Shown: piece after piece, positions 15,243-44,510 of the stretch
Numbering within the stretch: position 1 is the first letter of the stretch
How the letters are laid out: every line of letters begins with the position of its first letter
Source of the DNA: Actinocorallia populi
GTDB taxonomy: Bacteria; Actinomycetota; Actinomycetes; Streptosporangiales; Streptosporangiaceae
DNA length: 64,000 nucleotides
Reading direction: 5' to 3'
Assembly (NCBI RefSeq): GCF_002995495.1
Contig: NZ_PVZV01000005.1
Span: 62,001-126,000 of the forward strand
Notes under the pieces: generated by a model
Told to the model about the DNA's origin: nothing
The model's database searches: none
What the model saw: only the letters and a program-made list of their open reading frames with translations
Translations under genes and position numbers: made by a program

Positions 15243-16109
15243 GTGGGCTGGTTGTCAGCGGGCGAGGGATACGAGATCGCCCTGGTGGACGGCAAGGTGG
15301 TGGCGCGGTCGGCCCGCGCGGGCGGAAGGCAGCTGAAGACGCTGCCGAAGGCGCTGCGCGACCACCCCGAGGTGGAGCGGCTGCGCCAGTTCGCCGAATG
15401 GCTCGGCCAGCACGCCGCCGCGTGCGTCGCGCAGGTCGACGCGTGGATGATCTCGTCGCTGCCGGTGCCCACCGGGCTGCTCGGCCGGGTGTGGCCCGAC
15501 GACGCCTGGCAGGTGGCGCTGCGCGACCTCATCGTGGTCGGCGACGACCCGGACGAGCCCGGCTTCCTGCGGGACGTCTCGGAGTCCGGGGAACTGCGGG
15601 TGGTGAACCTGGACGGGGAGACGGTGCGGATGTCCGCCGAGACGGTGACGTTCCCGCACCCGGTGCTGCTGCCCGACCTGGAGGACCTGCGCGAGTTCGC
15701 CGCCGAACTCGAGGTGACCCAGAAGGTCGAGCAGATCTACCGCGCCACCTGGATCAAGCCCGCCGAGGCGGAACTGGCCCCGAAGGCCACCTCCGTGAAC
15801 GAGTTCTCCGGCGGGAGGTTCGCCTCGCGGTTCGCGCTGACGGCCCGCGCCGAGTCCTGCGGCTACCGCGTGTCCGGCGGCTACGCCACCTGCGGGGTGC
15901 GGGACGGCGGCCGGACGCTCGAGGCCTCGTTGTGGATCGGTGAACCGTACTGGGACGGCGAGAACGAGACCGGCTCCCTGACCTGGAACGACAAGGACGG
16001 CAAGGCGCTGAAGCTGCGGGAGGTGGGTCCCGTGGCCTGGTCGGAGGGGATGCGGATGGGCGCGGCGCTGTACGCCGGCCGGATCGTGGAAGGGACCGAG
16101 GGCAGATGA
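15243..16109 (+). CDS. Short DUF4132 protein, copy a
   Basis: This 288-residue protein corresponds to the C-terminal DUF4132 module of larger MolR/YehI-type proteins. Visible blocks are FPHPVLLPDLEDLREFAAEL, QKVEQIYRATW, and AESCGYRVSGGYATCGVRDG near residue 202. It closes with VAWSEGMRMGAALYAGR, the region that in MolR-like proteins ends the domain. Function is unknown; in enterobacteria the YehI protein with this domain is encoded beside YehL (MoxR ATPase). The GTG at 15243 has GGAGG about 9 bases upstream, the same arrangement as copy b. Its stop overlaps the ATG of giant 1 (ATGA), so the two are made together. Confidence 0.8.
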   Translation: MGWLSAGEGYEIALVDGKVVARSARAGGRQLKTLPKALRDHPEVERLRQFAEWLGQHAAACVAQVDAWMISSLPVPTGLLGRVWPDDAWQVALRDLIVVGDDPDEPGFLRDVSESGELRVVNLDGETVRMSAETVTFPHPVLLPDLEDLREFAAELEVTQKVEQIYRATWIKPAEAELAPKATSVNEFSGGRFASRFALTARAESCGYRVSGGYATCGVRDGGRTLEASLWIGEPYWDGENETGSLTWNDKDGKALKLREVGPVAWSEGMRMGAALYAGRIVEGTEGR

Positions 16110-19100
16110 GCGACGCCTCCGAACTGCTGGCCGCCGGTGCCGTCCTCCCGCTCGGCACGGTGGACGCGGGGGAGTCGGCGGTCCTGCTGACCGCCCGCAC
16201 CTACCGGCACCCGGCCCTGGACGACCGCGTGGTGGTGCGGCTGACGGCCGCCGACCTCGGGCAGGGCGAGGACCAGGCCTCCGGTTTCCTCGGCCTGGAA
16301 CGGATCAGCGAGCCCGTGGAGGTCGGATTCGGCCGGCGCACCGCGCTGGGCTTCCCCGAATGGGTGCTGGTCCACCACCCCGAGGACGGCCACCACGCCC
16401 TGGCCGTCATGCCCGAGATGAAGAAGATCGACCAGCGCGCGAAGAACAAGCCGAAGGCCGCGCTGGACGGCTTCCACGAGCTGGCCCGGCGCCTGGCCTC
16501 CTCGGTACCGCACCTGCTGCCGACCTTCTACGAGCGGGCCGCCCGTACCTTCCTCGGCATCGAGAACGTCGTCTACGCCACGCAGATGTTCACCCACGCC
16601 CGCAAGGCCGAGGCCGAGCACGGGCTGCCGATCGACGACGAGCGGCACGACGCGGTCTTCCTGGAGTTCGCGCTCGCCGGTGCGCTGCCGGTGAAGGTCC
16701 TCTCCGGATACGCCAAGGAGCTGGCCGCCCGGGTCTCCGCCGAGGAGGCTCTGCGCCGTTTCACGCGGCTGTGCGTGCGGCGTACCGCGAGCGGGCTGCC
16801 GCCGTCGGCGCAGATGGCCGTGGAGCTGCGGCGCCTGGCCAAGGCGGCAGGCGAGGACTCCGTGGCCGTCGAACACGCCTACCTCACCGAGCTGCTCGCC
16901 CTCCCGGCGACCGTGCGCGCCGCCGCGGGCTGGTGGAAGTCGCACCGGGCGGCCCTGATCTCCCTGGCCGCGCAGCGGCCGGAGGCGTGCGGGACGCTGC
17001 TGAACATGTTCCCGGTCAACGACGACCAGGACTTCTCGTCCCTGTGGCTGGAGATCCTCGAGGAGTCCGGGGCCACCGAGGCGCTCTCCGCACCTGACGG
17101 GACGCCCCGGGAGGCACGGCCGCAGGACGGCAGCGCGGGCTGGTTGAAGCGTTTCCTGCAGATGTGGGGGTCGGGATGGCACAAACCCCGTCCGCCCGGG
17201 CTGCTCCCGCTGGTGGAGCGCATGGCGGACCGGCTGCGAGCCGAGCTCACCGCCCGCGGCGAGGGTTTCGAGATCCCCCGGCACGTCGACCTGCTGGACC
17301 TGCTGCTCGCCCTGGGTGTCCCGGTGGCCGACCCCACCGAGCGCCACCAGCTGGATCTGAACGACTGGGCCAGGCTCGAGGAGCGGCGTGACCTGCTCGC
17401 CCTGGAGGCCGACGGAAGGTTCCGCCGGGCCTTCCACAGCGGCGCCGACGCCTTCTCGAACGACGAACACGGCCGGCGGGCGATGAGCGCCCTGATGGCC
17501 TCGCCGGGCGGACGGCCCCTGCTGGTGGAGTGGGTCGGCGAGGTCGCCCGCCGGTCGACCGCCACGGGGCTGCCGGGCCTGCCCGCCGCGCTGAACAGGC
17601 TCGGCTGGCTGCCCGGAGAGGTACTGGCGCTGGACGAGGAGGCGGCGCGCACGGCGATCACCTCGAGCCTGGCACCGGTCCTGGCCCGCACCCTGCGAGC
17701 CGGGCTCTTCGACGAGCTGCACTGGCCCGCCTGGGAGGAGTGCCTCGCCGAACTCGTCCAGGCCGATAAGACCAACAAGATCCTCGTCGCCGACGCCTGG
17801 CCGTACCTCATCGTCGCAGGCCCCGTGCAGGTCCGGGTGATCGGCCCCGAGGGTCCGGTGCTCGTCCACGACCTGCGCATTCCCGCCTCCGACAACGGCG
17901 GCGACTCGGTCGGCTTCCGTTACGTGGACGGGGAGCTGTTCGTCCACTGGTACTCCTCGCAGTACGGCGGGAAGCGCGTCGGGTACTGGCACACCGAAGC
18001 CGGTCAGCCGCGGCCCGTGGAGGGCCACCTGCCCAAGGCGAAGAGCATGTACTGGTACCAGAACGACCAGGAGATCAGCCTGCCGCTGCCCGGCGGCGGC
18101 CACACCACCGGCGCCGGAACGGTGCACCGCGGCGACACGGTGATGCCCTGGTTCCGGCCGGTCGCCACCGACGGGACGTCGTACTGGGTGTGGACCGCCC
18201 GGAAAGAAGAAGGATCCGGATCCGGCTGGCACGAGTACGACCCGGCGAGCGGCGAGCACGGCCGAGAGAGCCTGCCGGGCTTCTTCACCGACGGAGTACG
18301 GGCGGTACCGGGCTCCTCCTTCTCCTCCGGCTGGCTGCTGCCCGCCCCCGGGGCCGGGACCACCCCCACGGGCACCCCCGCGGACGGGCTGTTCGGCTGG
18401 CGGGTCGTGGAACTGCCCGACGGCTCCCTGCGCTCGGAGGACCTCGCCGGGAACGGCATGACGACACCGAAGGGCGTCATTCCGTTCAGCGGCCTGTTCA
18501 TGCCCGGCAGCGACCGGCCCCTGGCCGTGCTGACCCGCTCCTACCAGGTCGAGCTGGCCGACCAGGACGGCGTCGTCACCGCCTTCGCGCAGACCGACCA
18601 CGCCCCCGGGGTGTTCGCGGAGGGCACCCCGCTCCTGCCTCCGGCGCGGTACTGGCACTTTCTGCGGCCTCGCGACCCCCGTGGTTCGGAGGTGCTGCGC
18701 GGTATCGACCACGAGACCGTCTCGGCCCTGATCAAGGCGGCCGCGGCCATCGGCGAGAACCCGGCCAGGGAGGCCGAGGCCGCGGCCGCCGCCGCCGAGG
18801 AGCTGGCCGGGGCGATCCGGGCACTGCTGCCGGAGGTCACGCACGAGGCGCTGATCGCCGGGGTGGCCGGGGTCGTGAAATACACCGCCGAACAGCAGAA
18901 GGTCCTGGACAGGGCCGCGAAGCGCCTCGAGGCGGCTCTTGCTTCGGAGCCCGTCCAGGAGGAGGTCGCGACCGGCCCCGCCGACCGGCTGCTCAAGGCG
19001 GTGCTCGACGGCCTGGGCCTCGACCGGAACCAGAACCGCGACGACGAGGCCCCCGCCCTCTTCGGCGTGCTCCAGACCATGGCGCGGGCCACGGCGGACG

Positions 19101-21025
19101 ACGCCTTCGCCGATCCGTCCGAACGTCCGCGCCTCCATCTGGACGGACCGAAGTTCCCTGAGTCCTCCCTGCACCTGCACAGGCTGCTCGAAAGTCACGC
19201 CGCCGCGGTCTACCGTGCGGTGACGGGGTACAGCGCCCCCGAGCAGCGGGAGGCGCTGCGGGAACTGCTGACGGCGCTCGGCGAGCTGGGCCTGGTCACG
19301 GACGGGCGGCGGCCCGACCGCTGGCGCCGGTTCGTGCTGCGGCTGGAGAAGGAGCTGATCAGCCACCCCGACGGCTCGTGGCGGACGCGCCACTGGAGGA
19401 GGCTGCTCCCGCTGGAAGGCGGCGCCTTCCTGGCCTTCCTGGACTGCTCCCTGTCGGACAAGGGCGGAGAGTTCACGGCGCTGTTCCACGACCCGGCGGG
19501 CAGGTTCGAGGTCCCGGAGCCCTACACGGTGGGCTCGTCCGGCCCGGTCATCGACCCGGAGCGCACCGTCCCGCAGGACGGGTTCCTGGCCGAGGCCGCC
19601 GAACGCGGTCCGGCGCCGTGGTTCCCCGAGGCGGCCGAGGAGTTCTCCCGGCTCACCGGTGTCACCCCGACCACGGCCAAGCTGGTGCTCGCCGGCCTGC
19701 CGTCGGTCGACAGCTGGGAGCGCAACTTCCTGGCGCCCGAGCTGCGGTCCGTGCTCGACGTCAAGGTCGCCGAGGCCGCCTTCGCCAAGGACCAGCTCAG
19801 GGGGTTGGGCATCCGGATCCGGCAGGCGCTGATCGGCGCGCTGCTGCCCGCCGACCCGGCCCGCCTGTGGACCGACGGTCCCGACACGGCCGCGGCGGCG
19901 AAGGTGTGGAACGCCGAGTTCGGCCGGCGGGTGGCGGTGCCCGAGGCGCTCCTGACCGAGGCGGCCAAGACGGTGCGCACCGGCTGGGACTCCATCGCGG
20001 CGCTGCCCGCCCTGCTCGACCCGGCCTCCGAACCGCAGCTGAGCCAGGACCTCAAGTGGGTCGTGCGGGGGGACAAGGTCGTGCCGGAGGGGAAGACCGC
20101 GGGTTTCACCGCGGCGACCCTCCGTACCGCCGTCGCGCTGACGGCCTGGCTCGCCCACAGCCTCCCCGGCGGGGACCCGCTGCGCGACCGCCTTCCGGCC
20201 GCCCTCGCGGCGGTGCGGGCCAGGCTCGCCAACCCCGACCTGATGCTCGGCGCCGACCGGTACGTCGACATCTCCAGGTTCCGCAAGGTGGCGGGCGCCC
20301 CCACCGAGGTCGGGGAGGGGTACGAGCGGTACGGCGCGGTCGTCATGGCCACCCACGACAGCCTGCCCTACCCCGCCGTCCGGACGGCCCTGCTGGACGA
20401 GACCGGCTCGGACCCCTACCTGGCCGTGCTGCGCGCCGACCTCCCCGAACTGGGGGCTCTGGAACTCCCCTGGCGCACCGCCCTGGACGGCCGTTTCGCG
20501 GAGCTCCTGGCGGACCCGGGCGATCCGGCCGCGGGGGAGAGGGACGCCGACGGCACGTGGTGGCCGCAGGATCCGTCCCGTTCCGTGCCGGATCTCGTCG
20601 CCGAGGCCGCGGAGCGGTTCGGGCTCGGCGCGGATGCGGCGACGGTCTATCTGATGTTGTTGGTCATGCCGGATCCCACCGACAAGAACACCGCGAGGTG
20701 GACGGGCTGGAAACCGGCCCGGATCAAGGCGGCCCGTGCCGAGCTGGCCGCGACGGATCTGGTGGTGGAGGCGCGTCGCTCCCGGGCGAGTCGTTCCTTG
20801 TTCCTTCCGGGTGCTTGGAGTGAGTTGAAGACGCCCTGTCTGCCGTTGGAGGAGTGGAAGCTTTCGCTCTACGGTGTGCCGGCCGGGGCGCAGCGGCCTT
20901 CGTTGGGTGTCGTTGTTCCCTTCGAGCCTGTCGCGGACCTGTATCGCAGGGCGTGGCAGCGCATCGTGGAGGACGACGTGCCCCGCTTCGCGGCCCTGGA
21001 GGTCCGCAAGGGCCGGCGCCGCTGA
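16106..21025 (+). CDS. Giant array protein 1 (MoxR/DUF4132-cluster paralogue)
   Basis: This 1,639-residue soluble protein of unknown function is translationally coupled to DUF4132-a by ATGA. Visible regions are: an N-terminal block (GAVLPLGT, then ALDDRVVVRL and HHPEDGHHALAV); a helical segment around 134-200 with LLPTFYERAARTFLGIENVV; a beta-rich middle from about 575 to 780 with GYWHT, TSYWVWTA and WHEYDP motifs, possibly a propeller; and an Ala/Glu-rich coiled-coil-like stretch near 870-940. A helical block near 1170-1220 (PWFPEAAEEFSRLTGVT) follows, and the end around 1530-1600 has a winged-helix-like look (GWKPARIKAARAELAATDLV). No catalytic motif, signal peptide or membrane helix was found. 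Three paralogues follow. Confidence 0.8.
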   Translation: MSDASELLAAGAVLPLGTVDAGESAVLLTARTYRHPALDDRVVVRLTAADLGQGEDQASGFLGLERISEPVEVGFGRRTALGFPEWVLVHHPEDGHHALAVMPEMKKIDQRAKNKPKAALDGFHELARRLASSVPHLLPTFYERAARTFLGIENVVYATQMFTHARKAEAEHGLPIDDERHDAVFLEFALAGALPVKVLSGYAKELAARVSAEEALRRFTRLCVRRTASGLPPSAQMAVELRRLAKAAGEDSVAVEHAYLTELLALPATVRAAAGWWKSHRAALISLAAQRPEACGTLLNMFPVNDDQDFSSLWLEILEESGATEALSAPDGTPREARPQDGSAGWLKRFLQMWGSGWHKPRPPGLLPLVERMADRLRAELTARGEGFEIPRHVDLLDLLLALGVPVADPTERHQLDLNDWARLEERRDLLALEADGRFRRAFHSGADAFSNDEHGRRAMSALMASPGGRPLLVEWVGEVARRSTATGLPGLPAALNRLGWLPGEVLALDEEAARTAITSSLAPVLARTLRAGLFDELHWPAWEECLAELVQADKTNKILVADAWPYLIVAGPVQVRVIGPEGPVLVHDLRIPASDNGGDSVGFRYVDGELFVHWYSSQYGGKRVGYWHTEAGQPRPVEGHLPKAKSMYWYQNDQEISLPLPGGGHTTGAGTVHRGDTVMPWFRPVATDGTSYWVWTARKEEGSGSGWHEYDPASGEHGRESLPGFFTDGVRAVPGSSFSSGWLLPAPGAGTTPTGTPADGLFGWRVVELPDGSLRSEDLAGNGMTTPKGVIPFSGLFMPGSDRPLAVLTRSYQVELADQDGVVTAFAQTDHAPGVFAEGTPLLPPARYWHFLRPRDPRGSEVLRGIDHETVSALIKAAAAIGENPAREAEAAAAAAEELAGAIRALLPEVTHEALIAGVAGVVKYTAEQQKVLDRAAKRLEAALASEPVQEEVATGPADRLLKAVLDGLGLDRNQNRDDEAPALFGVLQTMARATADDAFADPSERPRLHLDGPKFPESSLHLHRLLESHAAAVYRAVTGYSAPEQREALRELLTALGELGLVTDGRRPDRWRRFVLRLEKELISHPDGSWRTRHWRRLLPLEGGAFLAFLDCSLSDKGGEFTALFHDPAGRFEVPEPYTVGSSGPVIDPERTVPQDGFLAEAAERGPAPWFPEAAEEFSRLTGVTPTTAKLVLAGLPSVDSWERNFLAPELRSVLDVKVAEAAFAKDQLRGLGIRIRQALIGALLPADPARLWTDGPDTAAAAKVWNAEFGRRVAVPEALLTEAAKTVRTGWDSIAALPALLDPASEPQLSQDLKWVVRGDKVVPEGKTAGFTAATLRTAVALTAWLAHSLPGGDPLRDRLPAALAAVRARLANPDLMLGADRYVDISRFRKVAGAPTEVGEGYERYGAVVMATHDSLPYPAVRTALLDETGSDPYLAVLRADLPELGALELPWRTALDGRFAELLADPGDPAAGERDADGTWWPQDPSRSVPDLVAEAAERFGLGADAATVYLMLLVMPDPTDKNTARWTGWKPARIKAARAELAATDLVVEARRSRASRSLFLPGAWSELKTPCLPLEEWKLSLYGVPAGAQRPSLGVVVPFEPVADLYRRAWQRIVEDDVPRFAALEVRKGRRR

Positions 21026-21044
21026 GCGAGACCGCCGCTCCACG

Positions 21045-21075: not shown

Positions 21076-21090
21076 TCTCGGTTTTCGGGT

Positions 21091-21126
21091 GATTTGTCAG
21101 AGCCGCCCACTAGATTCACGATCATG
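21091..21126 (+). promoter_or_regulatory. Array promoter block, copy B, with leaderless start
   Basis: The block is GATTTGTCAG, ten bases, TAGATT, then CACGATC and ATG. The start codon of giant 2 at 21124 lies just 7 bases after the -10-like TAGATT, exactly where transcription should begin, and no ribosome-binding site is present. This is the geometry of a leaderless mRNA, common in actinobacteria. The other four copies have the same spacing up to an A but no start codon there. Confidence 0.65.
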
Positions 21127-24100
21127 AACGACATGGCTGAGCTGCCGAGGGGCGCCGTTCTTCCGCTGGGCACCGAAGGCGCGGGGGAGCGGCTGGCGCC
21201 GCTGGCCGCCCGCGGCTACCGGCACCCCGCCCTGGCCGGCCGGGTGGTGGTGCGGCTGGTGCCCGCCGAGCAGATCGAGGGCGCGGACCTGGCCGCCCGG
21301 TTCCTGGGTCTGGAGGGCTTCGGCGAGCCCGAGACCGTCGCCCTGGGGCCGCGCACCGCGCTGGGCTTCCCCGAGTGGGTGCTGGCGCACCACCCCGAGG
21401 ACGGGCATCACGCGCTGGCCGTCGTGCCCGAACTGGAGCGCATCGCCCGGCGCGCGAGGTCCAAGCCGAAGGCGGCGCTGACGGCGTTCCAGGAGCTGGC
21501 CGCCAAGTTGGCGTCGTCGGTGCCGCACCTGCTGCCGACCTTCTACGAGCGGGTGGCGCGGGAGTTCCTCGCGGTCGAGAACCCCACCTACGCCGCGCAG
21601 ATGTTCACTCGCGCCCGTACCGCCGAGGCCGAGCACGGGCTGTCGATCGACGAGGATCGGCTGGACGCGGTCTTCCTGGAGTTCACGCTCGCTGGAGCCC
21701 TCCAGGTCAAGACGCTCTCCGCCTACGCCGCCGGCTTGGCCGAGCGCGTGCCCGCCGATGAGGCGCTGCGCCGCTTCACCCGGTTGTGCGTGCGGCGTAC
21801 GGCGGGTGGGGTGCCGCCGTCGGCGCGGATGGCCACCGACCTGAGGCGGCTCGCCAAGGCCGCGAGTGCGGACGCGAAGACCGTCGAACACGACTACCTC
21901 GCCGAGATGTTGGACCTGCCCGCGACCGCGCACGCCGTCGGAGGCTGGTGGAAGGCGCACCGCCAGGCGCTGCTTTCCTTGGCCCGGGAACGCCCGGAGA
22001 TCTGCGGGAAGCTGCTGAACCTGATCCCGGAAGACACCGAACGCGACGGCGAGATGCCCGCTCTGTGGTTGGAGATCCTGGAGGAGTCCGGTGCCACCGT
22101 CGCGCTCTGTGATCCCGGCAGCGTGCCCGAAGCCGCATGGCCGGAGGACGGCAGCGTCGGCTGGCTGAAGCGGTTCCACGAGTTCGTGAGGAAAGCGCAG
22201 CAGAATGCCTGCCTGCCCGCTCTGTACCCGCTGGTCGAGCGCATGGCGGACCGGTTGAAGGCCGAACTCGCCGCCGACGGTGAAGGACTGCCCGCCTTCC
22301 AGCAGGTCGACCTGCTGGATCTGCTGCTCGCCTTGGGCATACCGGTGGCCGATCCGTCGCGCGGCCACTCGCTGAGGCTGGAGGACTGGGCCGGGGCTCC
22401 GGAGCAGCGGGACCTGCTGGCGCTCGCCGCCGACGACCGCTTCCGTGTCTCCTTCCACCGCGGCATCGGAAGGTTGAACACCGGCCGCGGCGCGCAGGTC
22501 TTCCAGAAGCTGATCGCCTCACCCGGCGGCCGCCCGGTGCTCACCGACTGGATGGCGAAGGTCGCCCGCGAGACGGTCAGGCCGAGCCTGTCCCGACTCG
22601 CCGGGCCGCTGGAACGGTTGGAGCGGCTGCCCGACGAGGTGCTGGCGCTCGCCGAGAAGGAGGTGCGCGAGGTGGCGACGACCGACCTCGCCTCGATCCT
22701 CGCCCGGAACCTGCGGGGCGGGCTCTTCGACGAACTGGGCTGGCCCGCCTGGGAGGAGGCGCTGGCACAGCTGGGCGGCAAGCCGTCCAGGCTGCGCATC
22801 GCCGACGCCTGGCCGCACCTGATCGTCTCCAACCGGCACCAGGCCAGGGTGATCGGCGCCGAGGGCACCGTCCTGGTCCACGACCTGCGCGTCCCCGCCG
22901 GGGAGATACTCGACAGACCGTGCTTCCACTACGTGGACGGCGAACTGCTCGTCCAGTGGTCGTCCCGGCAGCGGAACGGCGAATGGCTCGGGTACTGGCA
23001 CACCTCGGCCGACCGGCGGCAGCCGATGAGGGGCGCCGTCGGCCGCAGTGCCCGCATGCCCTGGGACCAGGACGGGTTCTACAACCTGCCGCTCCCCGGA
23101 GGCGGCCGCACCACCGGCGCGGGAGTGCTGCACCAGGGGGACACCGTGCTGCCCGAGGCCGGGCGCGTCATCGGCGACGGCACGTCGTACTGGGTGCTGC
23201 GGTTCGCGGACGGTGAAAGCGCCTGGCACGAATACGACCCGGTGAGCGGGGAGACCGGGCGGCAGAGCATGCCCGCCTTCTTCACCGACGCGATCCGCGG
23301 CCTTCCCGAGGGAAGCACCTTCGAGAGCGGCAGGCTGCTCCCCGCCGTCGCCGAGAAGGCAGGGCCGGACGGGATCCCGGTGGGCGGGGCGGACGGCTGG
23401 CGGGTGGTGCGGCTGCCCGACGGCTCGTACCGCGGTGAAGACCTCGCCGGCAACGCCGTCACCACTCGGGGATCCTTCCGCCCGGTGGGCGTGGTGTTCC
23501 TGCCGGGGGACGAAAGACCCCGCGCGCTGGTGCAGGGCTCCTTCCAACTGGAACTGGTCGACCCCGACGACGTCGTCACCGCCTCCACGAGGACGGACGG
23601 CCCGGCCGGCCGGGCCACCGCGCTCCTGCCGCCGGTGCAGTACTGGCACGCCATGCGCCCCCGTGACCCGCGGGGCTCACAGGCCCTGCGCCGCATCGGC
23701 GGAGACACCGCGGCCGCACTGCTCAAGGCGGTCCGGGAGGGGGCGGAGCCGGCCGACGCCGTCCGCACCCTGATCCCGGAGCTCACCCACGAGAGCCTGA
23801 TCAAGGAGATCGGCGCGGTCGTGCGGACCGCCGCCGACCGGCAGCAGACCCTCGACAGGATCGGACGGAAGCTGAAGAGGACTTCCCTTCCCCCCAAGCC
23901 GGTGGAGAAGTTCGAAGGACCGTACGACTCGGCCATCCGGCACGCGCTCAACGGCATCGACGAAGGAGAGGGCTTCGGCGGTGACAATCCCGTTCTCTTC
24001 ACCTTGATCGAGCACATGCGCCGCGCCCGGGACGGACGGTACGACGGCGAGCAGTGCGAAACCCACCTGGACGGGATCAGGCTCCCCCACACGCCCCTGC

Positions 24101-26030: not shown

Positions 26031-26066
26031 GTTTTGTCGGCAACGCCCACTAGGTTCGTGATCATT
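26031..26066 (+). promoter_or_regulatory. Array promoter block, copy C (before giant 3)
   Basis: GTTTTGTCGG, ten bases, then TAGGTTCGTGATCATT. The expected transcription start is near 26064, giving a leader of about 47 bases with AAAGGGGAGAGGG before the ATG at 26111. Confidence 0.6.
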
Positions 26067-31073: not shown

Positions 31074-31108
31074 GGTTTGTCGTGGTGGCCCGCTAGGTTC
31101 GTGATCAT
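31074..31108 (+). promoter_or_regulatory. Array promoter block, copy D (before DUF4132-b)
   Basis: GGTTTGTCGT, ten bases, TAGGTTCGTGATCAT. The leader from about 31107 to the GTG at 31215 resembles the copy A leader, sharing TCC-GCGTTCTTCG followed by CCCGGAAC and the GGAGGTG ribosome-binding site region. This indicates that promoter, leader and DUF4132 gene duplicated as one unit. Confidence 0.6.
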
Positions 31109-31214: not shown

Positions 31215-32072
31215 GTGGGTTGGTCGGCGGCGGGTGAGGGATACGAGATCTCCCTGGCGGAGGGGCGCGTCGTGGCGCGCTCCACGTCGGGGAGATCGGC
31301 GGGGAGGCGGCTGAAGACGCTGCCGAAGGCGCTGCGCGACCATGCCGAGGTGGAGCGGCTGCGGCGGTTCGCCGAGTGGCTGGACCGGCACACCGCGGAG
31401 TGCGCCGCGCAGGTCGACGCGTGGATGGTCTCGGCGCTGCCCGTGCCGTCCGCGGTGCTGGGCCAGGTATGGGAGGACGAGGCGTGGCGGGCGGCGCTGC
31501 GCGACCTCGTGGTGGTCGGCGGCGACCCGGAGACGACGGGCTTCCTGCGGGACGTGTCGGAGTCGGGGGAACTGGGAGTGGTGAACCTGGACGGCGAGAC
31601 GGTGCGGTCGTCCGCCGAGACGGTGGTGTTCCCGCATCCGGTGCTGCTGCCCGACCTGGACGGGCTGCGGGAGTTCGCCGCCGAGCTGGGGGTGACCCAG
31701 AAGGTCGAGCAGATCTACCGGGCGACCTGGAACAAGCCGTCGGATCCGCGCTCGCGGTCCGATGCCACGAGCGAGTTCGCCGGAGGGAGGTACCGCTCGC
31801 GCTTCGCCCTCGTCTCCCGCGCCGAGTCCCTCGGCTACCGGGTCTCGGGCGGTTACGTCATCCACCGCCTCCGCGACGGCGGCGGCCGGATGGTCCAGGC
31901 CGCGGTGTGGGTCGGTGAACCGCACCGTGAGGACGAATGCGAGACCGGCGGCCTGGGCTGGCGGGACCCGGAAGGGCATCACCTGCCGTTCGACGAGATC
32001 GACGCGGTGGCCTGGTCGGAGGGCATGCGCATGGCGGCCGCCCTGTACGCGGGCCGGACCGGGGAGAGCTGA
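31215..32072 (+). CDS. Short DUF4132 protein, copy b
   Basis: This 285-residue paralogue of DUF4132-a has the same blocks: LKTLPKALRDHAEVERLRRF, QKVEQIYRATW, SLGYRVSGGYVIHRLRDGGG and VAWSEGMRMAAALYAGR. The GTG at 31215 follows GGAGG at 31201-31205. Unlike copy a, it is not directly coupled to a giant: 297 bases and a further promoter block separate it from giant 4. A relic of a giant N-terminus directly after its stop suggests the coupling was lost. Function unknown. Confidence 0.8.
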   Translation: MGWSAAGEGYEISLAEGRVVARSTSGRSAGRRLKTLPKALRDHAEVERLRRFAEWLDRHTAECAAQVDAWMVSALPVPSAVLGQVWEDEAWRAALRDLVVVGGDPETTGFLRDVSESGELGVVNLDGETVRSSAETVVFPHPVLLPDLDGLREFAAELGVTQKVEQIYRATWNKPSDPRSRSDATSEFAGGRYRSRFALVSRAESLGYRVSGGYVIHRLRDGGGRMVQAAVWVGEPHREDECETGGLGWRDPEGHHLPFDEIDAVAWSEGMRMAAALYAGRTGES

Positions 32073-32220: not shown

Positions 32221-32256
32221 GATTTGTCGGTGGGGCCCACTAGGTTCGTGATCACC
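32221..32256 (+). promoter_or_regulatory. Array promoter block, copy E (before giant 4)
   Basis: GATTTGTCGG, ten bases, TAGGTTCGTGATCA. The leader of about 116 bases to the ATG at 32370 contains a CTCCCGCGTT segment shared with the leaders of copies A and D. Confidence 0.6.
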
Positions 32257-37268: not shown

Positions 37269-37331
37269 ACCCTCATCCGACTTTCGTGAACCCCATGAAC
37301 TCGTGAACCCGTGCAAGGAAAGGAAGACACG

Positions 37332-38492
37332 ATGACCTCCACCGCGCAGGTGACGGAAGCCCCCGCCCGCCAGGTGCTCCCCGCAGAGGAGCGGTACGCC
37401 GACGAGCTGGCCTTCCTGGCCGCCTACGACTCCGGACCCCGCCCGCCCGGCTGGGCGCTGACCCCGAAGGCCGTCGTCACGTTCGTCTGCGGCTCCGGCG
37501 ACGAGCCCCTGCGCCTGCCCTCGCCGGTGAAGGGCATGCCCGACCGGCTCGTCGTGGCGCCCAAGTTCGTCGGGGAGCGCTCCCTCGTCGAGCGGTGCGT
37601 GGTGACCCTCGCCGGAGAGCGCGGCCTGCTGCTCGTCGGCGAACCCGGCACCGCCAAGTCGATGCTCTCGGAACTGCTCGCCGCCGCCGTCTGCGGCACC
37701 AGCGCCCTGACCGTCCAGGGCACCGCCGGGACCACCGAGGACGCCTTCCGCTACGGCTGGAACTACGCGCTCCTGCTGGCCCAGGGCCCCACCCCGCAGG
37801 CGCTCGTGCCCTCGCCCGTCCTCACCGCGATGCGCAGCGGCCGCGTCGCCCGCATCGAAGAGGTCACCCGCTGCCTCCCCGAGGTGCAGGACGCGCTGGT
37901 GTCGATCCTGTCCGACCGGCGGCTGAGCGTCCCCGAACTGTCGGGCACCGACGACGCGACCCTCTCGGCGGCCTCCGGTTTCACCGTCATCGCCACCGCC
38001 AACCTCCGCGACCGCGGCGTCTCGGAGATGTCGGCCGCCCTCAAGCGCCGCTTCAACTTCGAGACCGTCGCGCCGATCGCCGACGCCGCCGCCGAGACCG
38101 AGCTGATCCGCCGCCAGGCCACCACCGCCGTGGAGCGCGCCGGCGCGCCCTTCTCCGTCGACGACTCCGTCCTGGACACCCTCGTCACCGTCTTCCGCGA
38201 CCTGCGCTCCGGCCGTTCCGCCGAAGGCTGGGACGTGGAGCGCCCCAGCACCGTCATGTCCACCGCCGAAGCCGTCCAGGTGGCCGCCTCCCTGGCCATC
38301 TCCACCGCCTACCTCTCCTCCGGCGACCCCCTCGACCTCGTCCCCGGCCACCTCCTCGGCGTCGTCCGCAAGGACGACGCCGCCGACCACGCCCGCCTCC
38401 TCGGCTACTGGGACGGCCCCGTCCGCCGCCGCGCCGAAGACGGCTCCGCCACCTGGCGCCGTCTGTGGGACCTCCGCGAGACCGTCCGCTGA
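37332..38492 (+). CDS. MoxR-type AAA+ ATPase (YehL-like)
   Basis: This 386-residue MoxR-family AAA+ protein has Walker A GEPGTAKS, a Walker B-type block ARIEEVTRC followed by LPEVQDALVSILSDRRL, and sensor 1 in FTVIATANLRDRG. The arginine-finger region MSAALKRRFNFET follows. The QGTAGTTEDAFRYGWNYALL segment is characteristic of the YehL subfamily known from E. coli. MoxR ATPases act with VWA-domain partners as chaperones that mature or remodel protein complexes. The ATG follows AAGGAAG. Its position between giant 4 and the DUF5682-VWA gene supports a role in acting on the giants. Confidence 0.9.
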   Translation: MTSTAQVTEAPARQVLPAEERYADELAFLAAYDSGPRPPGWALTPKAVVTFVCGSGDEPLRLPSPVKGMPDRLVVAPKFVGERSLVERCVVTLAGERGLLLVGEPGTAKSMLSELLAAAVCGTSALTVQGTAGTTEDAFRYGWNYALLLAQGPTPQALVPSPVLTAMRSGRVARIEEVTRCLPEVQDALVSILSDRRLSVPELSGTDDATLSAASGFTVIATANLRDRGVSEMSAALKRRFNFETVAPIADAAAETELIRRQATTAVERAGAPFSVDDSVLDTLVTVFRDLRSGRSAEGWDVERPSTVMSTAEAVQVAASLAISTAYLSSGDPLDLVPGHLLGVVRKDDAADHARLLGYWDGPVRRRAEDGSATWRRLWDLRETVR

Positions 38493-38802
38493 TCCGAAGG
38501 CCCGGGGGACACCCCGGCCGACCGCGGCGAAGCGGGACCGGCTGTTCCCTGCGGGGGTCTGAGGGTTCGTTTCTCAGGTGGACGGCCTGGCCGCTCGCGT
38601 GGAGCGGGGACTGGTCGTTCCCTCGCGGGAGGCTGAGGGCTCGTCTCTCAGGTGGACGATCCGGTCGTTCGCGGTGAAGCGGGGTCGGCTCCCCGCGCGG
38701 TCGTTCCCGGGGTCGCGGCCGGGCGGAGATCGGTCGTTCTCCGCATGGGGTCTGGGGAGCGTCCCCGGACAGACAGGTAGAAGGAAGTCTGGAGGAGTTG
38801 CG
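38493..38802 (+). repeat. 310-base gap with tandem imperfect repeats
   Basis: Two units of about 72-75 bases begin with AGCGGG at 38531 and 38603, and a third partial unit starts at 38678. Each full unit contains CTGAGGG-TCGT-TCTCAGG, in which CTGAG and CTCAG can pair. GTCGTTCCC recurs in the second and third units. The segment between the MoxR gene and the DUF5682-VWA gene shows no convincing coding; an in-frame extension of the downstream gene through it would be low complexity. It may be a processing or regulatory RNA segment. Confidence 0.5.
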
Positions 38803-41800
38803 GTGTTGAGTGCCGTGGGAGTCGTGGAGCCGCGGGAGGCCGTGGGGCTGCTCGCCGAGTGCGGGAAGCCGTTCCTGGTGGGGGTGCGTCATCACAGTCC
38901 GGCGGTGGCCGCCGTCGTGCCGGCGTTGCTGGAGGCGGCCGGGGCGGAGGTGGTGTGCGTCGAGCTGCCCGCTGACTTCCAGCGGTGGATTCCGCACCTG
39001 GGGGACGCCGGGATGACGGCGCCCGTCGCGCTCGCGGGAACGCAGCGGGACGGAGGGCTGGGGTTCTACCCGTTCGCGGACTTCTCTCCCGAGCTCGCGG
39101 CCATCCGCTGGGCGCGGGAGCGCGGGGTACCGGTGGTGTGCTGCGACCTGCCCCTGGCGGACCCGGGCTGGGCGGGGGAGCGGGGCGCCGGTTCGGGAGA
39201 GGCGGTCTTCGCGGGAGCGCTGGCGGCCTCGGGGACCGGACGCGACGGGGACGACCTGTGGGACCGCGCCGTCGAGGTGCTGGCGCCCGGTTGCAGCCCC
39301 GAGGCCGTGCGGCGTGCGGCGCTCGGCGTCGGCTGGGCGCTGCGGCAGGACGCCGAGCGCGGAGCCGGGGTGGCCGCCGTCGACCTGGCGCGCGAGGCGT
39401 ACATGCGGGGCGTCCTGGCACGGGTCGCCGCCGACGGGCGCCGTGTCGCTGCCGTCGTCGGCTCCTTCCACGCGCCCGCGCTGGTGACCGGGGACGCGGC
39501 GGAGGTGCCGGAGGCGCTCGACGAGGAGTCGGTGACCTCGCTGGTGCCCTACGCCTTCGACCTGCTGGACGCGAGGTCGGGATACCCGGCGGGAATTCGG
39601 GACCCGCGCTGGCAGCAGGAGGTGTTCCAGGCCGGCGGCGACCCCGCGGAACTGCGGGACGCCGCGGCGCGCGCCATCACCGGGATCTGCCGGGCGATGC
39701 GGGACGCCGGGCACACGGCGGGCACGGGAGAGGCGGCCGAGACGCTGCGGGTCGCCTGCGACCTGGCCCTGCTGCGCGGGCTGCCCGCGCCGGGGCGGGG
39801 CGAACTGGTGGAGGCGGTGAGCACCGTGCTCGGCCAGGGCGAGCCCCTCGGCCGGGGACGGGCCGTGGCCAAGGCACTGGAACAGGTGCTGGTCGGGACG
39901 GCCCGGGGCAGGCTCGCGCCCGGCACGCCGCGCTCGGGCCTCGGCCCGTCCGTGGAGCGGGAGCTGGCGGAGCTGCGGCTGCCCTGCCCCGACGACCCCG
40001 ACTTCAAGGAGCTGCGGCTCGACCCGCTGCGGTCCGCGCTGGACCGCCGCCGCGAGACGCTGCTCCAGCGGCTCGACGTGTGCGGCGTCGGGTACGGCGA
40101 GCGGGTCGACGTCGGCGGCACCGGCGACGGCACCGCCCTCAGCACCCGCTGGCGGGTGAGGTGGACCCCGTCCGTGCCCGCCCGGCTCGACCTCGTCGGC
40201 GTCCGGGGCGTCACCGCCGCCCAGGCCGCGGCCGGCACCCTCAGCGAGCGGTTCCGGCACGAGGCGGCCGCGGGCGGCCCCACCTGCGCCCAGCTCCTGG
40301 GCGGCCTGGAGACCGCCGCCCGCTGCGACCTGCCGGACCTCGTCGCCGCCCGCCTCGCCGACGCCGCCGAGGCGCTGCCCTCGGCGGGAACCCTCCCCGA
40401 ACTGATCCGGGGCCTGGACCTGCTGGAGGCGCTGCGCCGCGAGCACCTCCCCGGAACCACCCCCGAGCTGCGCGAGCAGGCGTCCGGCCTGGCGGCCGTC
40501 CTGCTGGAGGCGGCCGTCCGCGCCCTGCCCGGCCTCGCCGGAAGCGACGACCCCCAGGACGCCACCGCCCTGGTGGACCTGGCCACCCGCGCCGGAGAGC
40601 ACCGCCTCGGCCTCCGCCTGGACGACGCCCTGGACACCCTGGCCCGCACCGGATCCCCGATGATGAGCGGCACGGCCCGCGCCGTCCGCGTCCTGCTGGA
40701 CCTGGACGACGCCGCCTCCCTGGGCTCCCGCGTCGCGGGCTGGATCGACACCGCCACCACCCCCGAGATCCGCACCCGCCTGCACCGCAGGCTCGCCGGC
40801 CTGCTCACCGCGGCGGGACCCCTCCTGGAGAACGCCCCCGCCGCCCTCGACCCGCTGATCGGCCGCATCGAGACCCTCTCCGACCGGAGCTTCCTCGTCC
40901 GGCTCCCGGCCCTGCGCGGCGGCTTCAACATCCTCACGCCCGCCGCCCGCGGCCGCCTCCTGGAGACGGTCACCGCGCGCCTGGGCGACCGCCCCGACCT
41001 CGCCCTCGACGTCCCCGCCCCCCTCCTGGCCCTGTGGACCACCACCGACAGCCAGGCCCACCGGGCGCTCCAGATGCTCGACCTGCCCGCCTTCGGCTCA
41101 CCGGAGGCGAAGGCGCCCGAGCCGGGACCGGCCGGGAAGCACACGACGACCGACCCCGCGCCGATCGCGCGGTCCGCACCGTCTGAGCTGGTCATGCCGT
41201 CCGCGCAGTCCGCGCCGTCTGTGAAGTCCGCGCCGTCCGCAACATCTGAGCCGTCTGCACCGTCTGCACCGTCCGTGAAGTTCGCACCGTCCGAGCCGTC
41301 TGCACGGTCTGGGCTGATCGTGCCGTCCGCATCGTCTGTGCCGGCCGTGCCGATCGTGCCGTCCGCGCAGCCCGCGGCGTCCGCGGGGGGCGTGCCGGTG
41401 CGGGAAGGCGGTCCGGAGCGGCCGTCCGTCCTCCCGGAGGAGGGCGGCGAGCGGCGGCTGGGCCCGGCCGACCGGTGGCGGCTCCTGCTCGGGCGGGAGA
41501 GCGAGAAGCTCTCGCCGGGAGCCGGCCGCTACGGGCAGGCGCTCGACGAGCTGTACGGGGCGGGCAAGGGCGAAGGGGCCGCCGACTTCGGTCCCGGCGG
41601 CGACCCCGCGAACGGCGGGGGACGGGAGGAGTCCTTCCCCACCGCCCGCGAATGGGCGGCCGAGCTGGAGGCGCTGTTCGGCGCCGATGTGTGCGAGGAG
41701 GTCCTGGCGCAGGCGGCCGACGCGGGCCGCACGGACGTGCTCACCGAACTGAACCCCGACCTCGTGCGCCCGTCCATCGGGCTGCTGACGACCGTGCTGT

Positions 41801-42579
41801 CCCTGGCGGGCGGCATGCCCGAGCAGCAGCTCGCCAAGCTGCGCCCCCTGGTGAAGCGCCTGGTGGACGAGCTGGCCAAGGAACTGGCGACCCGGATGCG
41901 GCCCACCCTCACCGGCCTGGCCACGCCGCGGCCGACCCGCAGGCCCGGCGGGAAGCTGGACCTGCAGCGCACCCTGCGGGCGAACCTCGCGCACACCCGC
42001 GAACTCGACGACGGACGGCGCGTCGTGGTGCCCGAGAACCCGGTCTTCACCACGCGCGCCAGCCGGCAGTCCGACTGGCGGCTGATCCTCGTGGTCGACG
42101 TGTCCGGCTCGATGGAGGCGTCCGTCATCTGGTCGGCCCTCACCGCCGCCGTGCTCGGCGGCGTCCCCACCCTCTCCACCCACTTCCTGACGTTCTCCAC
42201 CGAGGTCATCGACCTGACCGAGCGCGTCGACGACCCGCTCTCCCTGCTGCTGGAGGTGCGCGTCGGCGGCGGCACGCACATCGCGCGCGGCCTCGCCCAC
42301 GCGCGCTCCCTGGTGACGGTGCCCAGCCGCACCCTGGTCGTGGTCGTCAGCGACTTCGAAGAGGGCTACGGCGTCGGCGGGCTCCTCGCCGAGGTCCGCA
42401 CGCTCGTCTCCTCCGGCGTCCACCTCCTGGGCTGCGCCGCCCTCGACGACACCGGCGCTCCCCGCTACTCCAAGCCCATCGCCACGCAGCTGGCCGCCGC
42501 CGGAATGCCGGTGGCCGCCCTCAGCCCCCAGGCACTGGCCCGCTGGGTCGGCGCCCGCCTCCGCGGAGAAGCCCGATGA
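38803..42579 (+). CDS. DUF5682-VWA fusion protein (YehM-YehP-like)
   Basis: This 1,258-residue protein joins two functions that are separate genes in enterobacteria. Residues 1 to about 780 are DUF5682: FLVGVRHHSPAVAAVVPALL near the start, VVCVELPADF, and AVVGSFHAPAL, a pattern that recalls the TraB/ChaN/erythromycin-esterase fold. A linker at about 785-865 is made of degenerate SAPS-type repeats. The C-terminal VWA domain has the MIDAS motif DVSGSM near residue 1096, GGGTHIARG and VVSDFEEG. GTG at 38803 is chosen for GGAGGAG five bases upstream. The stop overlaps the SWIM gene's ATG. It is the expected VWA partner of the adjacent MoxR ATPase. Confidence 0.85.
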   Translation: MLSAVGVVEPREAVGLLAECGKPFLVGVRHHSPAVAAVVPALLEAAGAEVVCVELPADFQRWIPHLGDAGMTAPVALAGTQRDGGLGFYPFADFSPELAAIRWARERGVPVVCCDLPLADPGWAGERGAGSGEAVFAGALAASGTGRDGDDLWDRAVEVLAPGCSPEAVRRAALGVGWALRQDAERGAGVAAVDLAREAYMRGVLARVAADGRRVAAVVGSFHAPALVTGDAAEVPEALDEESVTSLVPYAFDLLDARSGYPAGIRDPRWQQEVFQAGGDPAELRDAAARAITGICRAMRDAGHTAGTGEAAETLRVACDLALLRGLPAPGRGELVEAVSTVLGQGEPLGRGRAVAKALEQVLVGTARGRLAPGTPRSGLGPSVERELAELRLPCPDDPDFKELRLDPLRSALDRRRETLLQRLDVCGVGYGERVDVGGTGDGTALSTRWRVRWTPSVPARLDLVGVRGVTAAQAAAGTLSERFRHEAAAGGPTCAQLLGGLETAARCDLPDLVAARLADAAEALPSAGTLPELIRGLDLLEALRREHLPGTTPELREQASGLAAVLLEAAVRALPGLAGSDDPQDATALVDLATRAGEHRLGLRLDDALDTLARTGSPMMSGTARAVRVLLDLDDAASLGSRVAGWIDTATTPEIRTRLHRRLAGLLTAAGPLLENAPAALDPLIGRIETLSDRSFLVRLPALRGGFNILTPAARGRLLETVTARLGDRPDLALDVPAPLLALWTTTDSQAHRALQMLDLPAFGSPEAKAPEPGPAGKHTTTDPAPIARSAPSELVMPSAQSAPSVKSAPSATSEPSAPSAPSVKFAPSEPSARSGLIVPSASSVPAVPIVPSAQPAASAGGVPVREGGPERPSVLPEEGGERRLGPADRWRLLLGRESEKLSPGAGRYGQALDELYGAGKGEGAADFGPGGDPANGGGREESFPTAREWAAELEALFGADVCEEVLAQAADAGRTDVLTELNPDLVRPSIGLLTTVLSLAGGMPEQQLAKLRPLVKRLVDELAKELATRMRPTLTGLATPRPTRRPGGKLDLQRTLRANLAHTRELDDGRRVVVPENPVFTTRASRQSDWRLILVVDVSGSMEASVIWSALTAAVLGGVPTLSTHFLTFSTEVIDLTERVDDPLSLLLEVRVGGGTHIARGLAHARSLVTVPSRTLVVVVSDFEEGYGVGGLLAEVRTLVSSGVHLLGCAALDDTGAPRYSKPIATQLAAAGMPVAALSPQALARWVGARLRGEAR
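41171..41395 (+). repeat. Low-complexity repeat linker within the DUF5682-VWA gene
   Basis: Short units built on CCGTC(C/T)GCA/CCGTCTG recur about fifteen times and encode SAPS, SEPS and VPSA-like steps. The stretch is in frame and separates the DUF5682 and VWA domains, so it is a flexible linker that probably varies in length by slippage. Confidence 0.6.
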
Positions 42580-44510
42580 CCACTCCCTCGACAACCCTCC
42601 CCCCGGTCGCCCCCGACGTGACGGCCACCGCCGTGGAGAGCCTCACGTCCCGGCTGCGCAAGAAGCTGGACGCCGCCGTGGAGCAGTACGCGGCGGCCCC
42701 CGTCACCAGGGGCGACGACGGCTCCCTGACGGTCGTCTGCGGCGAGGACACCGCCGTCACCCTCACCCCCGGACCCGCGGGAACGGTCAGCACGGCAGAG
42801 CAGGCCGTGTGCAGCTGCCTGCTCGCGCCCCGCTGCCTGCACCGCGCGGCCGTCCTCACCGCCTGCCCGATCGCCGACCCCGCCGCGGAGCCCGAGGCCT
42901 CGGCCGACGCGCCGGCCCCCGGAGCCGAACCGGCCGCCGCCTCGTCGACCGACAGGGCCGCCTCCGGCACGGCATCCGGACCGGAGGCGGGCGAAGCGGC
43001 CGGTACGCCGGCCGCCGGATCCGGGAAGACCGCCCCGGTGCCGGCGGAGGAGCCGCCTGCGAAGAAGCTTACGGCCGCGCAGGTCCGTGCGGCCGAAGGC
43101 CTGTGGAAAGCCGCTGCCGCCGTTCTGGCGGCGGGCGCCCAGGCGACGGGTTCCGTCCCGCAGGCCGAGCTGCTCCGCGCCGCCCACACCGCCCGGCTCG
43201 CCGGGCTCTACCGAGCCGAGGCCGCCGCGCTGCGCGTCGTACGCGGGGTGAAGGGCGCGCGGGCCCGCTACGAGAGCCACCGGCTGGCCGACCTCGCCGC
43301 CGCGCTGGGCGACCTCCTGCTGACGGCGTCCCTCCTGGCGACGGGCCGCTCCGAGACACGGCTCGTCGGCACGGCCCGCCGCGACTACCGCCAGGGCAGC
43401 AGCCTGCGCGTCCAGGGCGTCTTCCGCGAACCGGTGATCAGCGCGACGGGTTACGGCGGCGTCGTCACCCACCTCGTCTCCGAGACCGGCGACTGGTACT
43501 CGATCGCCGACGTCAAACCGGGCGGTCCCTCCCGCGCGCGGGGCGCCGCCACCGCCCCCGTCGCCCTCGGCGGCGTCCCCCTGGACCACGCCGGCCTCGC
43601 CCGCTCCGGCCTGACGGTCATCGGCACGACGGTCTCCCCGGACGGGCGGCTGGGCGCGGGCAAGGGCGTCCGCGCCCTGCCGGGCCCCGGCCTGGACTGG
43701 GCCGCCGCGCCCTTCCTGTTCGGCCGCACCCTGGCCGAGGCCGTCGCCGAACGGCTCGCCGTCGACCCCGGCGCCGACCCCGTCCAGGCCGAACTCCGGC
43801 TCCGCCGCCCCGTCGGCTGCGACCTGGTGATCCTCGGCCCCTCGGGCGACCACGTCCTGGCCCGCGAGCTCCATCCCGAGACCGGGGAGCCGCAGCCCGT
43901 CCTGGTCCGCCTGGTCCCCGCCCACCGCCACCCCGACCTGGCGCACACCGCCAACCTGCGCCAGCTGGCGGCCCGCCCCGGCGTGCACGTCCGCGTGGTC
44001 GCCCGCGTCGACCCGACCCGCGCCACCACCCTCACGCCCCTGGCGGTCGGTCCCGTTCCCGGCCACCCCTGCACCCTGCGCCTCCCCGCCGAATGGCAGG
44101 GCCACGCCGACCTCGGCTACGACCACGTCCAGGGCGCGCACTTCCCGGCGGAGCTCGAGCCCGGACCGCCTGTCGGCGCGGCCCCCGACCCCCTGACCGA
44201 CTCCCCGCTCTGGCGCGTCCGACGCCTGGTGGAGCTGGCCGCCGCGGGCGGACGCCGCGCCGTGGCCGAATCGGCACGGGGGGAGGCGGCCGTCCCGTCC
44301 CTCCTCGACCGCACCGGCTTCCACCACGCCGCCACCCTGACCACCGCCCTCACGAACGAGGCCGCCCGCCACACCCGTGACGTCTTCGGCCGCCTCGCCG
44401 ACACCGACCCCCGCCACTTCGCCGCCGCCTGGCTCGCCTCGTCCGTCCACCTCACCGCGGCCGAGCACGCCCTCGTCCGCGCCACCTGGGAGGCGGGCCA
44501 GGCCTCGTAG
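42576..44510 (+). CDS. SWIM zinc-finger protein (YehQ-like)
   Basis: This is a 644-residue protein. A CxCx6CxH motif, CSCLLAPRCLH at about residue 80, is a SWIM-type zinc finger, predicted to bind nucleic acid or protein. An Ala/Pro/Glu-rich linker (about 100-165) follows, then a long mixed region with TARRDYRQGSSLRVQGVFRE and a helical C-terminus. It overlaps the DUF5682-VWA gene by ATGA and ends the operon. A SWIM protein is the usual last member of YehL-type MoxR clusters. Its exact task is unknown. Confidence 0.82.
   Translation: MTTPSTTLPPVAPDVTATAVESLTSRLRKKLDAAVEQYAAAPVTRGDDGSLTVVCGEDTAVTLTPGPAGTVSTAEQAVCSCLLAPRCLHRAAVLTACPIADPAAEPEASADAPAPGAEPAAASSTDRAASGTASGPEAGEAAGTPAAGSGKTAPVPAEEPPAKKLTAAQVRAAEGLWKAAAAVLAAGAQATGSVPQAELLRAAHTARLAGLYRAEAAALRVVRGVKGARARYESHRLADLAAALGDLLLTASLLATGRSETRLVGTARRDYRQGSSLRVQGVFREPVISATGYGGVVTHLVSETGDWYSIADVKPGGPSRARGAATAPVALGGVPLDHAGLARSGLTVIGTTVSPDGRLGAGKGVRALPGPGLDWAAAPFLFGRTLAEAVAERLAVDPGADPVQAELRLRRPVGCDLVILGPSGDHVLARELHPETGEPQPVLVRLVPAHRHPDLAHTANLRQLAARPGVHVRVVARVDPTRATTLTPLAVGPVPGHPCTLRLPAEWQGHADLGYDHVQGAHFPAELEPGPPVGAAPDPLTDSPLWRVRRLVELAAAGGRRAVAESARGEAAVPSLLDRTGFHHAATLTTALTNEAARHTRDVFGRLADTDPRHFAAAWLASSVHLTAAEHALVRATWEAGQAS

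Follow-up and report, generated by a model that had tools for sequence, protein, structure and literature searches.

The closest described relatives of the genes considered here belong to the yeh locus of Escherichia coli K-12, which encodes, by Pfam family and in this order, DUF4132 (YehI), MoxR (YehL), DUF5682 (YehM), VWA (YehP), and SWIM (YehQ). Our literature search found no described function for a yeh-type set and no mention of DUF5682. We analyzed 64,000 nucleotides of the 8.25-Mb genome of Actinocorallia populi (positions 62001-126000 of contig 5, hereafter the window), where the same families occur in the same order in a cluster of nine genes, four of them paralogous giants. The E. 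coli parallel had been drawn in an earlier sequence-only reading of the window and stands. Absent from that reading, and added by this analysis, is a DNA-damage promoter before the first gene; the link of the operon to this published LexA-independent promoter is what is new here, the consensus itself being already known.

The cluster differs from the E. coli set in several respects. The MoxR and VWA proteins are 47% and 37% identical, respectively, to their E. coli counterparts, and DUF5682 and VWA are fused in the cluster, whereas YehM and YehP are separate. DUF4132 is a short separate gene before a giant in the cluster but occupies residues 954-1138 of the 1210 of YehI. When profiles of the giants and of DUF4132 were compared with the single YehI sequence using hhalign, no match was obtained, the DUF4132 alignment being weakened by one long fused row (L022). 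The cluster has a RecA-NDp promoter (described below), while the E. coli set has a LexA-box-like site (13/20) located 7 nt before yehF. We take molR to be the yehF/yehH end of the yeh locus. A passage of PMC3978071 counts molR among the canonical SOS genes.

A second point of comparison is the MoxR-vWA ternary conflict systems (Kaur et al. 2020, PMC7159879), made up, in the sections available, of MoxR, vWA, and a third component, with TPR and beta-propeller partners in one subsystem. The cluster differs from these, as its score for the bpMoxR profile fell below the cut-off (20.7 bits vs. 27) and those sections of the paper do not mention yeh, SWIM, WGR, or DUF4132. The proposal that such related systems act in conflict nevertheless favors a model where phage or prophage single-stranded DNA (ssDNA) would fire the promoter, the giants would recognize the invader, and a lethal or blocking response would follow. 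We consider such a damage-triggered anti-phage or abortive system unlikely: PADLOC models gave no match below E 0.02 among eight cluster proteins (best E 0.024), and none of the cluster proteins themselves has an effector domain by Pfam.

A Predicted LexA-Independent Damage Promoter before the Operon

The consensus of LexA-independent regulation in mycobacteria is given in a passage of PMC5656591 as tTGTCRgtg-N8-TAnnnT, the motif of the recA P1 promoter (RecA-NDp). Sites were scored as matches over its 12 fixed positions. On the + strand upstream of the first gene of the cluster, a DUF4132 gene (D1), an exact RecA-NDp (PafBC-type) site was found at positions 15104-15126, TTGTCGGTG-N8-TAGGTT (12/12). 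The same holds for most of its orthologs: 49 of 73 orthologous DUF4132 upstream regions carry an exact site, 18 a site at 11/12, five at 10, and one at 9, at a distance of 66-122 nt from the start codon. As a control, 1,460 slices of 300 nt were drawn at random from these loci, true sites not being excluded, and eight of them reached a score of 11. Over both strands of 80 related loci (1.56 Mb), 50 exact sites were present, all before DUF4132. Forty-nine fall within the 73 upstream regions and the fiftieth lies 89 nt before the DUF4132 gene of L085, a locus omitted from that set because it duplicates G002. Upstream of the giant, MoxR, and SWIM genes of these loci, the best score was 9, which makes it probable that the ancestral operon is transcribed from a single promoter.

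Other promoter signals were looked for. A -35/-10 pair (TTGNCN hexamer, 16-19 nt spacer) occurred in none of the 73 upstream regions. As an SOS control, two stricter forms of the LexA box were found neither in the window nor in the 73 upstream regions; the loose form GAAC-N4-GTTC was found once in the window, at position 62299, and in one of the 73 regions.

The exact pattern TTGTCRGTG-N8-TANNNT occurs six times in the whole A. populi genome and its reverse not at all. The genes following these six sites are recA (RecA 1.9e-141), uvrB (UvrB_inter 3e-33), a radA-like ATPase gene (a name we gave on the basis of Pfam domains), a macrodomain gene, D1, and the fourth giant of the cluster (G4). Ten further genomes contain 5-25 exact sites each, against 0-1 in the reversed control, and a candidate downstream gene was found for 29 of 30 sampled sites. 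By eye, some of these genes resemble uvrB, uvrC, ung, ligA, ruvC, and macrodomain genes and others resemble mobile-element or unrelated genes, and Pfam identified Cas3-like, Cas5, and SWIM genes. The recA gene was preceded by an exact site in four of nine genomes.

As described in portions of PMC5656591, PMC8223512, and PMC5087735, the RecA-NDp/PafBC regulon of actinobacteria has the same consensus and spacing and includes recA, uvrB, and macrodomain genes; the DUF4132-giant-MoxR operon is not named as a member in those portions. Similarly, our literature search, which covered parts of main texts without supplementary files, found no assignment of the operon to a DNA-damage regulon. Streptomyces coelicolor SCO6735, reported in an excerpt of PMC5087735 to be UV-inducible from a RecA-NDp promoter, can be likened to the A. 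populi macrodomain gene by description only. The regulator could be PafBC, which is activated by ssDNA according to the available part of PMC11804915. The A. populi genome contains two genes of the Pup-ligase family, and near one of them pafC (PF19187 2.5e-31) follows a frame that is pafB-like by eye. In a partly available report, MoxR1 and MoxR2 are lower in the proteome of a Mycobacterium smegmatis pafBC mutant, which ties them to the cluster MoxR by name only. Two reports, each available in part, weigh against a PafBC-type regulon here: the initial search in PMC9380542 found no conservation of the M. smegmatis motif in Streptomyces venezuelae, and ClgR is another protein reported for the P1 site (PMC5656591).

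The fact that the cluster lies under the same kind of promoter as DNA-repair genes makes it most likely part of the DNA-damage response, and very probably a member of a LexA-independent regulon as judged from its promoter. The promoter itself is well supported by sequence; we infer PafBC as the regulator. The damage promoter gives the yeh-type MoxR/VWA/SWIM genes a testable context, shared with recA and uvrB in actinobacteria.

Exact RecA-NDp sites were also observed before CRISPR genes, namely Cas3-like and Cas5 genes identified by Pfam at L129 and L139 (genome G061) and a Cas3-like gene recognized by eye at L153 (G062), which suggests damage-inducible CRISPR in some actinomycetes. The presence of Cas3-like and Cas5 genes under this promoter in another genome would suit a conflict role of the cluster as well. 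In G062 (Nonomuraea jabiensis), near-identical exact sites (TTGTCGGTGCC-N3-CGATAYCGT) recur, and the gene after the one sampled, at L143, looks like a transposase gene by eye; in this genome, the promoter motif may be carried by a mobile element.

DUF4132, a Giant, and MoxR/VWA/SWIM as One Unit

Related loci were collected by a MoxR search of named genomes, the best 80 of 197 being kept with at most 10 kb per side. The MoxR similarity in this set was 81-85% and, as the loci were chosen by it, the sample covers the near branch only (Streptomyces, Kitasatospora, Wenjunlia, Nonomuraea, Streptosporangium, Sphaerisporangium, Thermocatellispora, Actinocatenispora, and Actinocorallia). A DUF4132 gene and one giant lie upstream of MoxR on the same strand in all 76 loci with enough upstream sequence (the DUF4132 match of L040 is split in two); the remaining four lie on contigs that start too near MoxR. 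DUF5682-VWA follows in 80/80 loci and SWIM in 74/80, the last six being ended by a contig edge. The order DUF4132, giant or giant-like gene, MoxR, VWA, SWIM is kept in the more distant loci L021, L024, and L026, and in L022, L028, and L029 a single frame encodes DUF4132 together with giant-like sequence. The single-system interpretation of the sequence-only reading thus holds up: by gene order, the giants, DUF4132, and MoxR/VWA/SWIM form one system in the near branch examined.

Within the window, open reading frames, Pfam matches, and GC content by codon position confirmed nine genes at positions 15243-44510, all on the + strand, in the order DUF4132, three giants, DUF4132, giant, MoxR, DUF5682-VWA, and SWIM. 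The sequence-only reading had the gene content, the single strand, and the four giant paralogs right but not the order, as the second DUF4132 gene sits between the third and fourth giants. The first, D1 or DUF4132a (15243-16109, 288 aa, PF13569 E 4.9e-26), is followed by G1 (16106-21025, 1639 aa), an open frame supported by GC content by codon position and 61-62% identical to the other giants. Next come G2 (~21124-25950, ~1608 aa), G3 (26111-30958, 1615 aa), which is 74% identical to G2, and D2 or DUF4132b (~31215-32072, ~285 aa), 68.5% identical to DUF4132a. G4 (~32370-37268, ~1632 aa) adjoins MoxR. G2, G3, and G4 were called as open frames and from their likeness to the other giants.

Further damage-promoter-like sites lie inside the cluster, all on the + strand: before G2 at 21094-21116 (11/12, ending 7 nt from the chosen ATG), before G3 at 26034-26056 (10/12), before DUF4132b at 31077-31099 (10/12), and before G4 at 32224-32246, again an exact RecA-NDp (PafBC-type) site (12/12). 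These exact or degenerate sites before D1, G2, G3, D2, and G4 point to a promoter that was copied together with the genes.

Amplification and Divergence of the Giants

The four giants (1,608-1,639 aa) are 57-74% identical to each other over their full length. When all candidates were scored in three Actinocorallia genomes, four full-length giants were found in A. populi, all of them in the cluster, seven in a second genome (G001), and one in the third. Ten of these 12 giants are at the cluster, so that the concern of the sequence-only reading that giants might occur mostly away from MoxR is not borne out in the genus; the two exceptions, both in G001, each have an upstream site at 11/12. A quick tree built from 32 giants placed the window four in one clade (Shimodaira-Hasegawa-like approximate likelihood ratio test 99), with G1 paired with G4 and G2 with G3; six of the seven G001 giants fell into a separate clade (100). 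The separate clades indicate that the arrays are probably of separate origin. In a wider survey of the family, 25 of 200 genomes matched at 1e-80 and two full-length copies were found only in Actinocorallia; at most two candidates were scored per genome, placing higher copy numbers beyond the reach of the survey. Among the genomes examined, giant amplification was found in Actinocorallia only, apparently as two separate events.

Two shorter or damaged relatives were seen. On contig 6 of the A. populi genome (L022, G000:C6, locus positions 8963-10870, - strand), a 636-residue frame has DUF4132 and then a stretch resembling the beginning of a giant before it stops; it is a short relative or a remnant. 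A giant of another genus (G088:C18:29004-31061) has two TGA stops within the match and is probably a decayed copy.

The extra giants could be products of dosage or drift, with only G4, next to MoxR, working with the rest. Over their last 450 nt, G1 and G2 reach 93.8% identity vs. 72.3% overall, a sign of gene conversion that would fit this model, as would the single giant in each of the 76 loci with enough sequence and the absence of a paralog-specific selection signal (see below). However, all four frames are open over ~1,600 codons with a ratio of nonsynonymous to synonymous substitutions (dN/dS) of 0.49-0.63 outside the middle segment, exact or near-exact promoters precede several copies, dispersed ones included, and a probably independent expansion occurred in the second genome. 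We find this model doubtful for these reasons, although it is compatible with the remodeling machine proposed below. The lineage-specific arrays offer a natural experiment on the role of the giants as adaptors.

The sequence-only reading had noted divergence in a middle segment of the giants (around residues 900-1080) and taken it as what a recognition or conflict function would produce. The divergence is real, with a mean identity among the paralogs of 32% in residues 961-1020 vs. 44-85% in the other 60-residue blocks, but single-copy orthologs from other genera are just as divergent there (35%). We then compared dN/dS in residues 880-1100 with that in the rest of the protein, limiting ortholog pairs to dS 0.25-0.75. 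The six window pairs gave a middle/rest ratio of 1.91, the 21 G001 pairs one of 1.60, and 150 single-copy ortholog pairs one of 1.78 (standard deviation 0.33), and the mean middle-segment values were 1.10, 1.00, and 0.92 (standard deviation 0.23), respectively. The window giants may show a mild excess, which lies within the ortholog spread. As the ratios are alike in paralogs and single-copy orthologs, the middle segment is simply fast-evolving. This equal variation rules out the recognition argument drawn from the divergence, and the lack of paralog-specific acceleration also speaks against an anti-phage role.

The sequence-only reading had proposed profile searches of the giants, and these found no Pfam or NCBIfam family above cut-off. 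No PADLOC model matched them below 0.02 (none up to E 1 for G1). Profile searches of the PDB with the giant halves and DUF4132 returned nothing at E < 0.3, and neither giant half matched the PDB in Foldseek at E 0.001. From predicted structure, it is plausible that the giant consists of solenoid and beta-rich parts, with a candidate TPR-like helical-hairpin region at residues ~92-558. Foldseek rows weakly suggest a beta-propeller in residues 560-830, and a DNA-binding winged helix-turn-helix is possible at residues ~1470-1568. The scaffold role that the sequence-only reading offered for the giants is plausible with such an anatomy.

A Proposed Remodeling Machine

The MoxR-type AAA+ ATPase gene (~37332-38492, +) matches AAA_5 at 5.6e-38. 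Its motifs GEPGTAKS (37638), TANLRD (37995), and ALKRRF (38037) are presumably Walker A, sensor, and arginine-finger-like motifs; the Walker A pattern is present in 82/82 MoxR frames, and Walker B was not found with the pattern used. In a profile search of the PDB, MoxR matched midasin (3.7e-10). The next gene, the DUF5682-VWA fusion (38797-42579, +, with an alternative GTG start at 38578), matches PF18934 at 9.3e-206 and the CoxE-type PF05762 at 9.6e-64, and its VWA part (DVSGS...GGGTHI...VVSDF) has the DxSxS...T...D pattern that we take to be of the metal ion-dependent adhesion site (MIDAS) type. The last gene (~42576-44510, +, 644 aa) encodes a SWIM-type zinc finger protein with CxC-x5-CxH at 42810 (CSCLLAPRCLH). 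This assignment combines the motif with a Pfam SWIM match below cut-off (15.6 bits vs. 19.6); the motif pattern is present in 74/77 SWIM-gene frames from related loci, and over its best segments the window protein shares 35-76% identity with frames in the equivalent position of related loci.

Taken together, we lean toward a model where the cluster encodes a DNA-damage-inducible AAA+ remodeling machine of the YehI/L/M/P/Q type with DUF4132 and the giant as adaptor. In a first step, ssDNA produced by damage would activate PafBC, or a different activator acting at this site, leading to transcription from the RecA-NDp promoter before DUF4132. This single promoter would serve the ancestral five-gene operon, the amplified units found here having further exact or degenerate copies. 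The MoxR ring would then act via its VWA partner with a MIDAS-type site, as in RavA-ViaA and midasin, if family membership is a guide. DUF4132 and the giant would form one adaptor whose solenoid and beta-rich part hold the client, and the possible winged helix of the giant and the SWIM protein might place the machine on DNA or on a DNA-bound complex. The roles of motor, adaptor, and DNA placement are what we infer from families and predicted anatomy. Finally, ATP turnover could remodel or remove protein assemblies stalled on damaged chromosomes. Extra copies of the giant might widen the client range or alter the dose.

The CoxE type of the VWA domain is also what would be expected of a metallochaperone or cofactor-insertion machine (of CoxD/CoxE, Mg-chelatase, or molybdenum type) induced by damage within a general stress program. 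A weak match to TIGR02442, a putative cobaltochelatase (24.8 bits vs. a cut-off of 779), agrees with it, and the old name molR points to molybdate, a proposed MolR link that is repeated in a passage of PMC8533742. The same passage reports, however, that moeA and moeB were not differentially expressed, none of the nine flanking genes scanned is recognizable as a cofactor-biosynthesis gene, and the operon has its promoter type in common with recA, uvrB, and the radA-like gene, making this explanation very unlikely.

Related Systems in the Same Genomes and in Other Phyla

A second DUF5682 locus with MoxR and VWA was found in each of six actinobacterial genomes, its MoxR being 45-48% identical to that of the cluster. 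The operon SWIM-DUF5691-MoxR-DUF5682-VWA, found in these genomes and in Deinococcus, shares MoxR, DUF5682, VWA, and a damage-type site with the cluster but differs in gene order and in having DUF5691 in place of DUF4132 and the giant (by Pfam in A. populi, PF18944 2.6e-140, and by annotation in Deinococcus). SWIM was identified by Pfam in L174. A promoter site scoring at least 11/12 was present in 6/6 genomes within the 16-17 kb taken. L173 and L174 have two sites in opposite directions at the MoxR end, and in the other four the site lies upstream of MoxR in the same direction. The gene after the site had no Pfam identification in L173, L175, L176, L177, and L178. In the A. populi genome, a third set (L179) has an 11/12 site ~1 kb upstream, the meaning of which is unsure.

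According to the available part of PMC8533742, mitomycin C raises the level of DRA0166, a DUF4132 protein of Deinococcus radiodurans studied in tagged form, in the wild type but not in an irrE mutant. In a 19-kb locus of D. taeanensis, the best site resembling the radiation/desiccation response motif (13/15) lies 20 nt before SWIM-DUF5691-MoxR-DUF5682-VWA; a score of 13 was reached by 13 of 3,000 shuffles of the 150-nt region. Of 14 control genomes, two gave a DUF5682 match, namely those of E. coli and Deinobacterium. In E. coli and Deinococcus, gene sets of this kind are linked to other, unrelated damage regulators, LexA and DdrO, respectively. Tentatively, MoxR-DUF5682-VWA-SWIM with DUF4132 or DUF5691 adaptors might form a bacteria-wide, as yet unrecognized arm of the damage response, placed under the regulator of each phylum (LexA, DdrO/IrrE, or PafBC-type) and clearing or rebuilding protein assemblies by ATP rather than repairing bases. 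The giants would then be interchangeable client adaptors, found in arrays of four to seven in one genus.

Two DUF4132 genes, the first short (657 aa), precede MoxR in Iodobacter, beside transposase genes; more than one adaptor is therefore not unique to Actinocorallia. This locus (L181, 2427-14662) is on an Iodobacter fluviatilis plasmid typed as mobilizable and consists of the two DUF4132 genes and MoxR-DUF5682-VWA-SWIM, with a type I restriction-modification set adjoining. The Iodobacter and Allorhizobium loci yielded no convincing damage box. LexA-type patterns were absent from L181; L182 has two GTTC-N7-GTTC sites, neither directly before the operon.

The neighboring restriction-modification set would be in keeping with an anti-phage system, as would the patchy distribution (25/200 family genomes matched) and the separate amplifications in one genus. 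Against this, the nine genes flanking the A. populi cluster include none of a Pfam defense family; they encode a regulator, an aldehyde dehydrogenase, a FUSC transporter, two MFS transporters, an AMP-binding enzyme, a Tle1-like phospholipase, and two proteins without a match. The phospholipase gene could be counted in favor of conflict, though nothing links it to the cluster. It lies ~2 kb past the cluster (46415-47614, +) and has the catalytic domain of a Tle1-like type VI secretion system phospholipase (PF09994 1.2e-83), here in an actinobacterial host. A MoxR relative was also found in a phage record from human faecal samples (MT835988.1, H41), with 41% identity over 95% of the query.

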